From a virus, in IMG/VR virus record IMGVR_UViG_3300045539_000031, positions 1-24,776 of that record: 24,776 nt of DNA; one strand, given 5' to 3'. Every line of letters starts with the position of its first letter. Positions within the stretch are counted from its first letter, which is position 1. Made by a program: the position numbers and the translations under genes. This document shows positions 2,461 to 8,913 of the stretch, piece by piece. Under the pieces are notes generated by a model that was given only the letters and a program-made list of their open reading frames with translations, was not told the origin of the DNA and ran no database searches.

Positions 2461-2826
2461 ATGAGTTACTTAACACAACAGGACACTTGCAACTGCTATA
2501 ATGCCGTTCCAATGTCGCAATGCTTACAAGAGATTAAAATTAACGGCCTTGAAACAGGAACGAACTACATCTTTGAGATATGGGATAAGTTCAACTCTTT
2601 AGATGTATTGATTGATACGGCTGTTTCAAATGAATGCGTTTTAGATTTATCTCAACTACCTACTAATTTATTTAACTGCAATGCTGGGGAGTTTACATTA
2701 GTAATCTATGACACTTCAGACTATGAAACACCTATTGAATTAACCTTTGGTGGTGTGGCTTATAATTGCTTTATACTAACGTTTATTAACTCTAATTCAA
2801 CTGCGACTTATGAGTATTTACGATAG
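2461..2826 (+). CDS. Hypothetical virion-associated protein (121 aa)
   Basis: I do not recognise this family. It is rich in beta-forming residues and has several cysteines (CNCY near residue 10, then C21, C58, C72 and one near the end). The pattern (LQEIKINGLETGTNYIFEIWDKF, then VLDLSQLP, then GEFTLVIYD) looks like an Ig-like or adaptor-type beta sandwich. It is the first gene after terL, begins 4 nt after a promoter-like box, and overlaps the next gene by 17 nt. Its place at the head of the tail module suggests a small tail or adaptor protein, which is inference from position only. Confidence 0.6.
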   Translation: MSYLTQQDTCNCYNAVPMSQCLQEIKINGLETGTNYIFEIWDKFNSLDVLIDTAVSNECVLDLSQLPTNLFNCNAGEFTLVIYDTSDYETPIELTFGGVAYNCFILTFINSNSTATYEYLR

Positions 2827-3085
2827 TGTTATATTAGCTACTTCAATAGTGATAACAGTTTATCAAAGTACTGAAGAAGGAATGATATTTGAATATTTAC
2901 ATAAATATAAATCAAAATGGTACTTAAAACCATTTATAGGATGTCCAACGTGTATGGGTTGGTGGTACGGAATTGTGGTATCATTGGCAAACGGATTTAC
3001 ATTGCAAGCTATCCTGTGTGGATTTCTGACACTCGCATTGTGCGAGGTTTATAGTTGTTTATTATCAATAAGTTATAAAGAATGA
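2810..3085 (+). CDS. Small membrane protein with a CPTC motif
   Basis: A 91-aa protein with a hydrophobic N-terminal segment (about residues 4-20) and a long hydrophobic region (about 52-86) able to form one or two membrane helices. Between them is FIGCPTCMGWW (42-52), a CxxC pair directly before the second segment. The CxxC-then-membrane-helix layout recalls DUF1360-like membrane proteins, but I cannot confirm membership. It overlaps the upstream gene by 17 nt and the downstream gene by 4 nt (ATGA), so all three are probably translationally coupled. A membrane protein is odd between terminase and tail chaperone genes. Confidence 0.65.
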   Translation: MSIYDSVILATSIVITVYQSTEEGMIFEYLHKYKSKWYLKPFIGCPTCMGWWYGIVVSLANGFTLQAILCGFLTLALCEVYSCLLSISYKE

Positions 3086-3744
3086 AACTAAAAGAAAAAC
3101 TAACAAAGTTTTTTAGTGCTAAGCCTCCTAAATGGAATAAAGACACTAACTATGTGATTGAGTTCGCATTTAAGCATAATGGTAAAAATTACTATCAATT
3201 ATCAGACTACGTTAATATTCCATGTGAAAGAGCATTTACAGCAGTTTCATATTACGATGAACTATCGATGAAATGTGATAGGTCTTTTCTATTAGCTCAT
3301 AATGAGGCAATAGAAACAGCTTGTAATAATGGTAAATTAACAGAGGTTGTAAAGTTAAACCATGATTTAAAACTTAGATTAAGTTTAGTTAGTGACCCTG
3401 ATTTATTACTTAAACTTGCTTCAGTTGTTTTCTTTGATGAAAATGAAAGTCCTTTAGTTTATGACTTTGCTTATAATGAAAAGAAACTAAAAGAATGGAA
3501 AAAAGATAAGTTAATGGATTTTTTCCAAGTCTTGCCTTTACAAAACTTAATACCCTCTTTAGATTTCTCAAAAATAGATTTAAAGACCTTTACGCAAATG
3601 AACCACGAGGTAAGACAATTAACGGTTCTACAGCTAGACAACATCTTGCACAATCTTTCACACGAGGCATTGAAAGGAGATTTAGCGAAAGGCTTAATCT
3701 TGCAAAAGGAAGCCCTACTGAACTCAATAGCATTAGAGGGTTAA
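3082..3744 (+). CDS. Probable tail assembly chaperone, zero-frame product
   Basis: A 220-aa protein directly before the tape measure gene, where siphophages encode their tail assembly chaperones (lambda G/GT type). It is mainly helical and has no enzyme motif. The first about 168 residues look like one domain. From about 3586 to 3744 this frame has an unusually high share of codons ending in G/C (25 of 52 by hand count), while the -1 frame over the same stretch has 13 of 52 and reads on to 3803, 2 nt before the tape measure ATG. I infer that part of the ribosomes shift to the -1 frame and make a longer fusion, or that the shifted product is the main one. It starts with a 4-nt ATGA overlap on the preceding gene. 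Confidence 0.7.
   Translation: MKLKEKLTKFFSAKPPKWNKDTNYVIEFAFKHNGKNYYQLSDYVNIPCERAFTAVSYYDELSMKCDRSFLLAHNEAIETACNNGKLTEVVKLNHDLKLRLSLVSDPDLLLKLASVVFFDENESPLVYDFAYNEKKLKEWKKDKLMDFFQVLPLQNLIPSLDFSKIDLKTFTQMNHEVRQLTVLQLDNILHNLSHEALKGDLAKGLILQKEALLNSIALEG
3519..3525 (+). promoter_or_regulatory. Candidate -1 slippery heptamer T_TTT_TTC
   Basis: Read in the zero frame (GAT TTT TTC), the heptamer fits the X_XXY_YYZ rule for -1 frameshifting. The -1 frame is open from 3510, so slippage here would give a 240-aa fusion. I rank it second to the site at 3579, because zero-frame codon use looks normal between the two sites. Confidence 0.3.
3579..3585 (+). promoter_or_regulatory. Candidate -1 slippery heptamer T_TTA_AAG
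   Basis: In the zero frame (GAT TTA AAG) this is an exact X_XXY_YYZ heptamer. Slippage would continue as DLYANEPRGK and on to the stop at 3801-3803. The codon-ending bias changes from one frame to the other right after this site, which makes it the better candidate. I did not find a clear downstream hairpin by eye. Confidence 0.5.
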
Positions 3745-3803
3745 GTATTTACGAATACCATTTATTTATCGAAGAAATGGAGAAACAAGCAAATAAAAAA
3801 TAA
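3585..3803 (+). CDS. -1 frame extension of the tail assembly chaperone (T part)
   Basis: The -1 frame relative to the upstream gene is open from 3510 to TAA 3801-3803 and has no ATG, GTG or TTG before the internal ATG at 3777, so it is hard to reach except by frameshifting. From 3585 it reads 72 residues of plausible helical protein, including STARQHLAQSFTRGIERRFS and GLSIYEYHLFIEEMEKQ. Its codons end in A/T about 75% of the time, like neighbouring genes. It ends 2 nt before the tape measure start, whereas the zero frame would leave a 61-nt gap, unusual in this packed region. By analogy with lambda GT, the extension would recruit the tape measure to tail tube assembly. Slippage at either candidate heptamer gives a 240-aa fusion. 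Confidence 0.6.
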   Translation, partial: DLYANEPRGKTINGSTARQHLAQSFTRGIERRFSERLNLAKGSPTELNSIRGLSIYEYHLFIEEMEKQANKK

Positions 3804-3805
3804 TT

Positions 3806-6685
3806 ATGGCAACCGATATCAAAGTAGTTAAAACCGTATTCTCAGTTGATTCAACTGATATAGATGAAGCAAAAGTTAAATATAACGGATTAACTACGTC
3901 TATCGAAAAAGCAACAACAGCATTAAAGAATCAATCTACTGATGCTAAAACTTCGGTTGCTGACTTAAATAAGTCTATTAATAGTGTAATTAATAGAACC
4001 AACTTACTACAAAGTGAATATCAAAAAATAAGTAATCAAGCGAGTAAAACTTTTGACCCTAAAACGCTTGATATTTATAAACAAAAAATGCAAGCTTTAC
4101 AAAGTGAAGCAAAAGAATTGGGTGTAAAATTAACCGATACAAATAAGCAAACTGAGAAGCTAAAAAGTGGTATTGGTGGCATAGGCAACGCCATTGCAGG
4201 TGCTTTCGCTATTGGTTCGGTTGTTGCTTTTGGGAAGTCTGTTTTAGATGCAACAGTAAAGAATGAACAATTAACTAAGTCTTTTGAGGTAATGCTTAAA
4301 AGCAAAGCACAAGCTGATATATTAATGGCTCAACTTGTTCAATTTGCTAAAACTACACCATTTGAACTAACAGAAGTCGCTGAAGCAACTAAGAAGCTTT
4401 TAGCTTTTGGTATTGCTTCAAGTGATATTAAATCAACATTAACAAAGCTTGGCGATGTTAGTGCTGGGATAGGTGCTCCATTGTCAGAAGTTGCATATCT
4501 TTTTGGTACTATCAAAACGCAAGGTAGAGCAATGACACAAGATATAAACCAATTTACAAATAGAGGTATTCCAATGTGGGATGAACTCGCAAAGGTAACA
4601 GGGATAAGTGGATTAGCTTTAAAGAAATATGTTGAAGAAGGTAAGATTGGATACAAAGAAATAGACCAAGCATTTACAAACTTAACTACAAACGGTGGTA
4701 AGTTTACAGGGTTAATGGAAGCTCAATCTAAAACTTTAGGAGGCACTATTTCAAACTTAGGCGATTCATGGGATCAATTCATGGTTAAGCTTGGTAATGG
4801 TAATAGTGGCATTTTAAAATCAATTGTTAGTACATTAGGAGAAGTAGTTGATAAATTAAATGAATGGGCAGAAACAGAAGAAGATGCCGTTAAATCATTG
4901 GCTGAAAAGAAATCAAGAGCAGTACAAAAATATGTCGAAGATGATTATAAAAAGTTTATTGAATTAGGCAAAAAGAACGGTATTGATGAAAGAACTGCAA
5001 TTGAAGAAAGGTATAATAACCAAACACAATTAAAGTCTGATTTATTAACTAAACAACAAGAAAAATTAGAAGAATTAGAATTAAAAAGAACTAACCATGC
5101 AAATCGTATTGGTGATGGTTTATTGGTTGAACGTTTAAGTGAGATTGCTAAATTAGAATATGGAGCTGAACAAGATAGATTAGATAATTTAGTTATATCT
5201 CAAAAAGCAGAAATTGAAAAAACTAAACTACATCAAAAAATATTAGAAGATGTAAAGAAAAAACATTTTGAAGATATTACTAAAGTAGAAGAAGGTGAAA
5301 CAAAGAAACAAAAGGAAGCAAGATTAAAAGCTCAAAAGAAAATAGTTGATGATGCTATTAACTTATTACAACACGAAGAAAAGATTGCTAAACAAAAGGC
5401 AATTAATGAAGGTAAAAACGCAGTTGAAATAGTTGAGATTGAAGAACTTTATAATTATAAAAGAGTTGAAATTTATAACAAGTATTCTGATATTCTTAAT
5501 CAAAAGCAAAAACAAGATGCTGAATCAACTATTGTAAATGTTGATACATTAGCAACTAAACACGTAGAAACTGAAACTAAGATGTATGCTGATTTATTAG
5601 CAGAAAATCAAAAGTATTATAAAGAACAAAAAGAACAAACAGAGAAAAACGAAAAGGATTTAATTGAAAGCAATCTAAGGTATCAGTCAATAAATCAAAG
5701 TAAACTGTCTATTGAAAGGTCTGAATCTTTAAAAAGGGTATTAGATAATGACAAACTAACTTACAAAGAAAAGCAAAAAGAGATTGAGAAAATCAATATT
5801 GAATTTGAAGAAAGAAAAACACAAGTAGAAGTTGATGGACTAAAAAAACGTTTAAATACTGAAATACTTGACCCTGAAAAAAGATTAGCAATAGTAGCAG
5901 AAATAAAAGAAAAGGAATTAGATATAATAAAAAAAGGCAACGAAAAGATAGTTGAAGATGATAAAGCAACAGCAGAAAAACGAAAAGAAGTAATAAAACA
6001 AGGTTTAGACTTATTAGAGGAAGGGATAAACGCTGTTTACTCTTATAAAAAGAACGTTAACGACCAAGAACTTATAGACCTTAAAGATAAAGAAAAAAGA
6101 GAGATGGAACTTGCAGGCGATAACCAAGCGAAGAAAGATGCTATTGCCAAAAAGTATGAAGCATTACAAGCTGAAGTAAGAAGAAAACAATTTGAACAAA
6201 ACAAACAAATTGCATTGATAAACGTGGCTATTAATACGGCTGAAGCAATATCTAAAGCTAACCCTAATATCCCATTGATGGCTTTTGCTGGGGCAAGTGG
6301 ATTAATACAAGCAACTTTAATTAACTCACAACCTACTCCAAAATTCGCAAAAGGTGTTATTGATTTGCAAGGTAAAGGAACAGGAACAAGTGATGAAATC
6401 CATGCAATGCTTTCAAAAGGGGAATCAGTAATGACTGCTGAAGAAACAAGTAAATTTAAACCTTTACTCCAAAGCATAAGACGTAAAGAGTTAAGTCCTG
6501 AACTTGCTAACATGATGTTAAATGGACAAAAAATGTCCAATATAAACCTTAATACTGATTCATTAGCAAGAGAGTTGAGAGGTATGCCAAAGAATCATAT
6601 TTCAATAGATAAAGATGGCTTTAAAACGTTTCTTTATAGTGAAAATTTAAAACAGGAATCATTAAATAATAGATACTTATCATAA
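3806..6685 (+). CDS. Tail tape measure protein
   Basis: At 959 aa this is the longest protein in the window; it sets tail length and occupies the tail lumen. Residues about 1-120 are helical and coiled-coil-like. A glycine/alanine-rich hydrophobic segment follows (about 122-145), then the conserved tape-measure N-terminal domain (about 130-270) with TTPFELTEVAEATKKLLAFG, LGDVSAG, and QDINQFTNRGIPMWDELAK. Residues about 360-800 are a long K/E/Q-rich coiled coil. The C-terminus has the typical GTGTSDEIHAMLSKGESVMTA segment (from about 857). It lies directly after the tail assembly chaperone and overlaps the next gene by 1 nt (TAATG). By the usual rule of thumb (about 0.15 nm per residue), this length implies a tail of roughly 140 nm. 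Confidence 0.93.
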   Translation: MATDIKVVKTVFSVDSTDIDEAKVKYNGLTTSIEKATTALKNQSTDAKTSVADLNKSINSVINRTNLLQSEYQKISNQASKTFDPKTLDIYKQKMQALQSEAKELGVKLTDTNKQTEKLKSGIGGIGNAIAGAFAIGSVVAFGKSVLDATVKNEQLTKSFEVMLKSKAQADILMAQLVQFAKTTPFELTEVAEATKKLLAFGIASSDIKSTLTKLGDVSAGIGAPLSEVAYLFGTIKTQGRAMTQDINQFTNRGIPMWDELAKVTGISGLALKKYVEEGKIGYKEIDQAFTNLTTNGGKFTGLMEAQSKTLGGTISNLGDSWDQFMVKLGNGNSGILKSIVSTLGEVVDKLNEWAETEEDAVKSLAEKKSRAVQKYVEDDYKKFIELGKKNGIDERTAIEERYNNQTQLKSDLLTKQQEKLEELELKRTNHANRIGDGLLVERLSEIAKLEYGAEQDRLDNLVISQKAEIEKTKLHQKILEDVKKKHFEDITKVEEGETKKQKEARLKAQKKIVDDAINLLQHEEKIAKQKAINEGKNAVEIVEIEELYNYKRVEIYNKYSDILNQKQKQDAESTIVNVDTLATKHVETETKMYADLLAENQKYYKEQKEQTEKNEKDLIESNLRYQSINQSKLSIERSESLKRVLDNDKLTYKEKQKEIEKINIEFEERKTQVEVDGLKKRLNTEILDPEKRLAIVAEIKEKELDIIKKGNEKIVEDDKATAEKRKEVIKQGLDLLEEGINAVYSYKKNVNDQELIDLKDKEKREMELAGDNQAKKDAIAKKYEALQAEVRRKQFEQNKQIALINVAINTAEAISKANPNIPLMAFAGASGLIQATLINSQPTPKFAKGVIDLQGKGTGTSDEIHAMLSKGESVMTAEETSKFKPLLQSIRRKELSPELANMMLNGQKMSNINLNTDSLARELRGMPKNHISIDKDGFKTFLYSENLKQESLNNRYLS

Positions 6686-8913
6686 TGGAATATAGATTCA
6701 CGATTATTAACGGAGAAGTTGAAACGGTTATTGATGAGCCTATCGGATGGGATAAATGTAAATTTACTTTAGCCCGTGATGAAAATTATCACGGTATATT
6801 TGTGACCTTTTCAACAGACTTAGAGTTTGTAGGTACAGGCTATACAATTATATCAGATACGTTTTATAATGATGGTATTGAAGCAGTATTAACGCTTAGG
6901 ATTGAAGAAAGATGTAATGCTTCTTATGATTATTCAGAAGTCTTTGAAGGTCGTATAAACTTATCAAGATTTCAAGATTTATTTAACGGTTATTGTTCAT
7001 GTAAGGCTAATTTAGAGGATAAGACTTCTCAAATGCTTATTAAAAACAATAGTGATAAGTTAATTAACCTATCTAATGAATTAGTTGTTGAAGATGGTAC
7101 TTTGCCTGCTTTAACTCCTAACGTTATGACAATGCACAGTAAAGCTATTGTGTTAACAACGGTATTTAAAGAAGCAGTTGAATTGTTTGTATCTATAAAC
7201 ATGGATGATATAGATAATCAAGCAATCGCAATGCCTTTTTGGTTATTATTAAATGCTGATGATTTAAATAGTGGTTTATCATCAAGTAATTTATACGTTA
7301 CAAGAAATATTCTATCTAACCCTACATGGTGGGTTGATGTTGCTCAATTTAAAGCATTTTATTCAGGAACTTATACAATTGATTACGATATAATTTCACA
7401 AACTAATTTTAAGGTTTACGCTCGTGACTTTGAAATGAACATGAATGTAGCAATTTATAAAAATGGTGTATTACATGAGGATATAAGCCCTTTAGTTTCA
7501 AGAGAAGAATATATTAACGTAGAAACTATTTATAGTGATGATTGGAACTGTCAAGGAACAAGTACAATAACTTTAAATGCAGGCGATTATGTTTCTATAT
7601 TTTATAGAATAAGATTTATATGGTTAGAAGGTGTGGGGAGTGGCATTGTTGATTGGCAACACTTATCAACTACACAAGATGTAACTTTCAAATCAGAAAC
7701 AACAACGGCTTCAAGTGAAGCAAATACTTATCTGGTCCATGAAGCTTTTGAAAGAGTAGCACAGGCTACATTAAATAAAACAGATGCGTTTGAAAGTGAC
7801 TTTTTAGGCCGTGTAGATTTGGGTTACGGCTCAAATGGTTGTGGTTCATTTATGGCTGTAACAAATGGATTCAATATAAGGGCATTTGATAAGCCTGTTT
7901 TATTCAACTTAAAGGATTGCTTCAATTCACTAAGTGCAGTTCATTGCTTAGGTTTAGGACTTGAAAATGATAAGATAAAGATTGAGCCTTTAGACTATTT
8001 CTATAACTCAAATCTTGAGATGACACAACACTTAAATATTAAACAAATAGCCGTTACAAGCGATGAGAAGTTAATCTACAATACTGCGATAATTGGATTT
8101 GAAAAGTCAGGAACTGAAGATGGAACGGATAAGCAAAATGTACTTGATGGATTCGCTACTCAACACAACTATAACTTTCCAATCACAACGGTAAAGAAAG
8201 CATTTACGAAAATTTCTAATTGGATAGCGGATCATTACTCTATCGAATTTACAAGACGTGTACAATACTTCACAACATCAACACAATCTTGGAAGTATGA
8301 CAATGATAATTTCATGATATGCACGAATAGAAGTGTAGATGAAAACGATATACCAACTTCATTAAACATAGCAGAAAAGAATGAGAACTTTACAACTACT
8401 AACAATATTCTAAGTCCTGAAACAGGGTACAATCTAAGGTTAACACCTACAAGAATGTTACTTAAATGGAATCAGTTAATAAGTGGGGTTTATTCTAAAG
8501 CCGTTGGTAATTCTATTAAATTTGTTGATGGTATTTCTAACTATCTTTATCAATCTCAATTAGATGGTAATTGTACAGATAGATATAATAACGAACTGTT
8601 ATCCGAAAATCAAAACTTGTCTTGGGATGATGCAAACAATGAGCAAAACGCTCCAATAATTGAGCCTATAAGTATTAAGTACACTTATCCAATGACATCA
8701 ACCGAGTTCGCAAGTATTGTTGCTAATCCTATTGGTTATATTTCAGCTTCAAAGAGTGGCACAATAGAAAACAGAGGGTTTATAAAAATGCTTACATTTA
8801 CACCTAATGAGGGCATGGCTGACATTGAGCTTATTAGAATGTTTGGCAATGAATCGCAATGTGACTTGGTTTATGTAGAATGTCCTTATGTTGAACCTGA
8901 ATATGTTGAATAA
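6685..8913 (+). CDS. Large tail-tip/baseplate-like protein
   Basis: A 742-aa protein directly after the tape measure, where siphophages encode distal tail and tail-tip proteins. The N-terminal about 100 residues include EPIGWDKCKFTLARD and YHGIFVTFSTDLEF, a start I associate with tail proteins of Bacteroidota phages. The rest is a beta-rich mosaic without catalytic motifs. It would sit at the tail end and join the tube to receptor-binding parts; this is inferred from position. It overlaps its neighbours by 1 nt on both sides (TAATG). GTGGCACAA copy 2 lies inside it, at 8756-8764. Confidence 0.65.
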   Translation: MEYRFTIINGEVETVIDEPIGWDKCKFTLARDENYHGIFVTFSTDLEFVGTGYTIISDTFYNDGIEAVLTLRIEERCNASYDYSEVFEGRINLSRFQDLFNGYCSCKANLEDKTSQMLIKNNSDKLINLSNELVVEDGTLPALTPNVMTMHSKAIVLTTVFKEAVELFVSINMDDIDNQAIAMPFWLLLNADDLNSGLSSSNLYVTRNILSNPTWWVDVAQFKAFYSGTYTIDYDIISQTNFKVYARDFEMNMNVAIYKNGVLHEDISPLVSREEYINVETIYSDDWNCQGTSTITLNAGDYVSIFYRIRFIWLEGVGSGIVDWQHLSTTQDVTFKSETTTASSEANTYLVHEAFERVAQATLNKTDAFESDFLGRVDLGYGSNGCGSFMAVTNGFNIRAFDKPVLFNLKDCFNSLSAVHCLGLGLENDKIKIEPLDYFYNSNLEMTQHLNIKQIAVTSDEKLIYNTAIIGFEKSGTEDGTDKQNVLDGFATQHNYNFPITTVKKAFTKISNWIADHYSIEFTRRVQYFTTSTQSWKYDNDNFMICTNRSVDENDIPTSLNIAEKNENFTTTNNILSPETGYNLRLTPTRMLLKWNQLISGVYSKAVGNSIKFVDGISNYLYQSQLDGNCTDRYNNELLSENQNLSWDDANNEQNAPIIEPISIKYTYPMTSTEFASIVANPIGYISASKSGTIENRGFIKMLTFTPNEGMADIELIRMFGNESQCDLVYVECPYVEPEYVE
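8756..8764 (+). repeat. GTGGCACAA repeat, copy 2 (inside a CDS)
   Basis: The 9-mer covers codons AGT GGC ACA A near the end of the tail-tip gene. It may be a chance product of coding sequence, because no promoter-like box follows at the spacing seen for copies 1 and 5. Confidence 0.3.

Follow-up and report, generated by a model that had tools for sequence, protein, structure and literature searches.

In phage lambda, a change of reading frame near the 3' end of gene G gives rise to gpG and gpGT. Both bind the tape measure protein through the G part that they share, and the tail tube protein is bound by the T part (PMC5009743). The P2-type E/E' frameshift, likewise in a tail chaperone gene, reaches a level 2-3 times that in lambda (PMC5009743). 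In the SEA-PHAGES training set, the mean distance between the slippery site and the zero-frame stop is 26 nt (PMC10885494). Such a short zero-frame remainder is typical of the lambda and SEA-PHAGES cases, although it is arguable whether it represents a strict defining feature.

We compared these systems with a locus in a 24,776-nt stretch of viral DNA (IMG/VR record IMGVR_UViG_3300045539_000031, positions 1 to 24,776; referred to here as the window), for which a sequence-only reading had proposed a programmed -1 frameshift in the gene upstream of the tape measure gene (Table 1). The coordinates given for the -1 frame proved exact when re-checked: it is open from 3510, after a stop codon at 3507-3509, to a TAA at 3801-3803 that precedes the tape measure ATG by 2 nt. 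As that reading had also stated, the frame lacks a usable start before 3777, with ATG, GTG, and TTG all absent from this region and ATT codons present. Its hand count of codons ending in G or C after 3585 was reproduced on recount (13 of 52 in the -1 frame vs. 25 of 52 in the zero frame), and the -1 frame is the one with normal composition, because the rest of the zero-frame gene (28 of 145) and the tape measure gene (174 of 959) are likewise low in such codons. Both heptamers that it had named, at 3519 and 3579, are in phase, and they are the only two among the 48 in-phase X_XXY_YYZ heptamers in the window's genes that lead into a long intragenic -1 frame (94 and 74 codons, respectively, the next longest being 37); one further long -1 frame following an in-phase heptamer is simply the next gene. 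When synonymous codons were redrawn, the -1 frame stayed open in 0 of 20,000 trials that kept the zero-frame protein, and the zero frame stayed open in 0 of 20,000 trials that kept the -1 protein. By these measures of the sequence, the -1 frame at 3510-3803 is confirmed as real coding sequence, one that would be reached only by a change of frame from the gene at 3082-3744 and that would give a pair of products sharing residues 1-148.

Table 1. Features of the frameshift locus and the adjoining tape measure gene in the window.
Feature	Position	Strand	Remarks
Zero-frame gene	3082..3744	+	220 aa; putative tail assembly chaperone (G-like); residues 1-148 in common with the fusion
Slippery heptamer T_TTT_TTC	3519..3525	+	Zero-frame codons TTT at 3520 and TTC at 3523; unchanged throughout group A
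-1 frame extension of the putative 240-aa fusion	3525..3803	+	92 aa plus stop
Dual-coding overlap	3525..3741	+	72 zero-frame codons 3' of the site; fewer wobble changes in both frames
5' arm of predicted downstream stem (GUCUUGCCUU)	3529..3538	+	Pairs with 3607-3616
3' arm of predicted downstream stem (GAGGUAAGAC)	3607..3616	+	Pairs with 3529-3538
Inner hairpin of predicted structure	3556..3586	+	Arms 3556-3566 and 3576-3586; 97.7% of cells paired, no two-sided change
Tape measure protein gene	3806..6685	+	phrog_9959 tail length tape measure, E 6.2e-90

Relatives of the zero-frame gene were found in 107 viral contigs, with identities down to ~30%; nearly all of these contigs were fetched by the zero-frame protein, so they were not chosen for their -1 frame. 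Group A consists of the window, L002-L008, and L024-L027 (62-96% identity). Group B (L049-L096) was first reached via the -1 domain as L045 and then fetched with the L045 zero-frame protein, while group C (L097-L147) was first reached as L046-L048; each of these two groups is ~30% identical to the window. The -1 protein is conserved among the relatives. The sequence-only reading had pointed out that, unlike in lambda G, more than 50 zero-frame codons follow the site, and this is both correct and a conserved feature: within each group, the zero-frame stop lies at an almost constant distance from the run, at 223 nt in group A, 235 nt (a few 241 nt) in group B, and 160 nt in group C (142 nt in L146), corresponding to a zero-frame tail of 72 codons in the window and ~45-77 codons elsewhere. 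Two scans of a collection of genome contigs found no prophage relative, and the Riemerella and Bacteroides phages reached via the tape measure protein had no evident counterpart in their upstream regions.

A T run is present at the homologous FF position in all 107 contigs that reach the site, as T6C in group A, T9G in groups B and C, and T8C in L146, the runs of groups B and C lying at the same protein position as T_TTT_TTC in the window. Beyond this run, both the zero and the -1 frames are open in all 107 contigs as far as each contig extends. Group A contains what is expected of a -1 programmed ribosomal frameshifting signal, namely an in-phase, conserved X_XXY_YYZ heptamer, T_TTT_TTC, which is close to the T_TTT_TTG heptamer of P2 E/E'. 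The T9 is directly preceded by a TAG in the -1 frame in 46 of the 47 contigs of group C, so the slip must occur inside the run. Only the first of the two candidate sites named earlier held up in the alignment of relatives, since T_TTA_AAG at 3579 is broken in L004 (TTTCGAG) and in L025 and L027 (TTTAGAG) and was rejected as not conserved. A programmed -1 frameshift upstream of the tape measure gene is thus supported by comparison of three lineages.

Selection on the two frames was assessed from substitution counts obtained by parsimony on maximum-likelihood trees; shared ancestry makes these counts approximate, yet the three lineages agree. Between the upstream part of the gene and the overlap, zero-frame third-position changes per site decreased from 1.92 to 0.90 in group A, from 4.58 to 1.99 in group B, and from 4.58 to 1.42 in group C (Fisher p = 2e-5, 2e-18, and 1e-11, respectively). 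This decrease is located at the run, where adjacent 30-nt bins fall from 1.3 to 0.3 changes per site in group A and from 5.0 to 0.2 in group C, while in group B it starts one bin before the run. Past the zero-frame stop, -1 third positions change 2.17 (A), 4.79 (B), and 1.65 (C) times per site vs. 0.24-2.14 at the other two positions (p = 1e-17 to 2e-46 for -1 coding), with 39 of the 59 changes past 3744 falling on -1 third positions. Within the overlap, where -1 third positions are zero-frame second positions, these same positions change only 0.57 (A), 1.20 (B), and 0.52 (C) times per site, and zero-frame selection is detected both across the overlap (p = 3e-6, 7e-6, and 2e-14 for groups A, B, and C) and in its distal part (p = 9e-5, 3e-3, and 7e-5). 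The reduced number of wobble changes in each frame indicates that both frames are under purifying selection within the overlap, its distal part included. For group C, dual coding rests on this substitution pattern, because an open zero frame is by itself unsurprising there (probability 0.5). The earlier view of the -1 frame as the selected one was therefore only partly right, since in the overlap the zero frame is selected too.

Comparative sequence evidence demonstrates the slippery site, the use of both frames, and selection on both. The reading that we favor, and consider quite probable, is that the gene encodes a two-form tail assembly chaperone produced by a -1 slip at T_TTT_TTC that is probably stimulated by a stem, with both C-termini under selection. 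Most ribosomes would stay in frame through T_TTT_TTC and produce the unshifted protein, while a minority would slip one base back at 3519-3525, with two tRNA-Phe re-pairing on TTT and TTT. The slipped product would have the same first 148 residues followed by a different C-terminus of 92 residues, ending where the tape measure gene starts. By analogy with lambda gpG/gpGT, coating of the tape measure would fall to the shared domain and recruitment of tail tube subunits to the -1 domain. In contrast to lambda, the unshifted form would bear a C-terminal domain of its own of ~72 residues, and because this domain is itself selected the region would code for two proteins. We infer that the ribosome, rather than RNA polymerase, slips at this site, as we do the stimulator, the product ratio, and the chaperone function.

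The chaperone role is suggested by position and recoding, given that -1 recoding in the gene immediately upstream of the tape measure gene is what characterizes the G/GT arrangement (PMC5009743). The tape measure gene directly follows in the same orientation in the window, and a tape measure gene also follows in the group B and C representatives; on comparative evidence, a shift at the slippery site gives a fusion that shares the N-terminal domain. The frameshift could be real and both products serve some other role in tail or baseplate assembly, which we consider unlikely, although it would fit with the absence of homology to any known chaperone and with a zero-frame C-terminal domain that has no counterpart in lambda G. 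The zero-frame and -1 proteins of the window had no match in Pfam, PHROGs, or the phage collection, nor did the group B and C zero-frame proteins match anything in the phage collection, and no convincing chaperone homologue was found among solved structures (PDB). Weak PHROGs/Pfam matches to group B and C members and weak helical PDB matches (pentatricopeptide designs) were taken as chance, and the AlphaFold models were too poor to compare or search with (mean pLDDT 50 and 53).

In Leeuwenhoekiella phage Arctus_1 (L033:5171-5800) and Rhodobacteraceae phage MD05 (L034:4656-5309), the tape measure gene is preceded by one unshifted gene of ~210-217 aa, and both phages carry a relative of the virion protein encoded at 6685-8913 in the window. 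These unshifted genes had no detectable similarity to the locus and were rejected as fused homologues; they are possibly functional counterparts without a frameshift.

The slip itself could instead be made by RNA polymerase, which would add or drop bases on the T run so that the altered mRNAs are translated in the -1 frame. In many bacterial genomes, selection against slippage becomes apparent once a run reaches nine (PMC1088944), and runs of about this length (T9) are found in nearly all group B and C contigs. In ~85 kb each of group B and C contigs, T runs of at least nine number 12 and 11, in 10 loci each, and nearly all of them can be explained by this site, while A runs of at least nine number 0 and 1. 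Group B furthermore has no appreciable conserved downstream structure (consensus -1.2 kcal/mol), and group C has only a short hairpin ~40 nt downstream of the run. However, two ribosomal heptamers overlap within T9, and its invariance therefore does not tell the mechanisms apart; in addition, the window and the rest of group A have only T6, far below nine, together with a predicted downstream stem.

The group A fold is predicted to be a 10-pair outer stem enclosing an 11-pair hairpin, with 98% of cells pairing; the inner hairpin overlaps the rejected heptamer at 3579-3585. For the stem (z = -2.1), eight of the 10 outer pairs are invariant and one shows a compensatory U-A to C-G change in L024 and L026, with a covariation score that was reached by 16 of 500 shuffles. 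The stem begins 3 nt downstream of the slippery heptamer, and the usual spacer between a slippery site and its stimulatory structure is 5-9 nt. Because there is one compensatory event, the bases are dual-coding, and the 3-nt spacer is short, we rate the stem as at most probable; as predicted, it would probably favor ribosomal frameshifting in the window's group.

Overall, we regard transcriptional slippage as an improbable account of the locus; in the T9G lineages it may predominate, and at the window's T6C it may contribute to a small extent. A switch of mechanism between lineages, from a ribosomal slip at T6C plus stem to an RNA polymerase slip at an invariant T9 with both C-terminal domains kept, is a possibility that we hold with considerable doubt. 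If it were true, the tail machinery would need two isoforms of similar size with different ends rather than a short and an extended form. The T6 and T9 versions of one gene allow ribosomal and transcriptional slippage to be compared directly.

That the -1 frame is instead a separate gene with a non-standard start, making no fusion, is very improbable. The ATT codons in the -1 frame could provide such a start, but no start codon occurs at a common place across the lineages, and none of the three standard ones precedes 3777 in the window. Coding in the -1 frame begins at the run, because the zero-frame wobble constraint starts there and the group C -1 frame opens exactly there. A sequencing or assembly error, with a missed base joining the frames into a single 240-aa protein, is refuted, homopolymer runs being error-prone in some technologies notwithstanding, by the recurrence of this layout, constant positions of the zero-frame stops included, in 107 contigs from numerous metagenomes, and by selection on both frames in the overlap, which is not expected from one joined frame.

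Several features were observed in the neighborhood of the gene. Directly 5' of it, in both the window (2810-3085) and L045 (3301-3561), is a small, probably membrane protein with a CPxC(M/S)G motif (GCPTCMGWW, ECPFCSGAW). The window's only T9 run is at 841-849, between an ORF ending at 806 and one starting at 890. In L024-L027, the -1 frame appears to extend past the tape measure start and overlap the tape measure gene. In group B, a hairpin that resembles a terminator and is followed by a run of T (AGCCATCCAATCGGGTGGCT TTTTTT; L050:4831-4850, with comparable sites in L049-L096) is located between the -1 end and the tape measure gene; it might lower tape measure expression. Many contigs of this group have a similar GCCA-containing sequence 3' of the -1 stop.

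Ordinary gene calling would yield only the 220-aa form of this gene and miss the fusion, and a predictor relying on how far away the zero-frame stop lies would tend to miss it as well; in PRFect tests, only 2 of 43 viral genomes with a distance of more than 51 nt were recovered (PMC10885494). The phage, profile, and genome collections that were searched contain no match to the gene family described here.

Like lambda G/GT (G_GGA_AAG), the locus has a gene before the tape measure gene, a slippery heptamer, a shift in the -1 direction, and a shared N-terminal domain joined to a -1 frame C-terminal domain (PMC5009743); unlike lambda, its zero frame continues for 72 codons under selection after the site, its slippery sequence is T_TTT_TTC or a T9G run, and no sequence similarity was found. 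In the searches made, the proteins also showed no relationship to those of P2 E/E'. The group B and C T9 runs have the right length for transcriptional slippage of the kind known at 9A/9T runs (IS elements, Thermus dnaX; PMC1088944), in contrast with the shorter T6C of the window; the literature searched holds no report of transcriptional slippage in tail chaperones. Nor does a long selected zero-frame tail in a tail chaperone appear in the mostly open-access papers covered by that search. The location is the same as that of the actinobacteriophage (SEA-PHAGES) tail chaperone frameshifts, most of which are also in the -1 direction, but the 223 nt between site and zero-frame stop is about nine times their 26-nt mean, and the extra zero-frame sequence is selected. 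While a frame switch in a phage gene is itself known, a 72-codon stretch that codes for two proteins at once is unusual. The recoding at this locus is thus of a familiar kind, while its layout is a variant that widens the range known for tail chaperones, with one gene giving two proteins of similar size whose C-termini are different and separately maintained.
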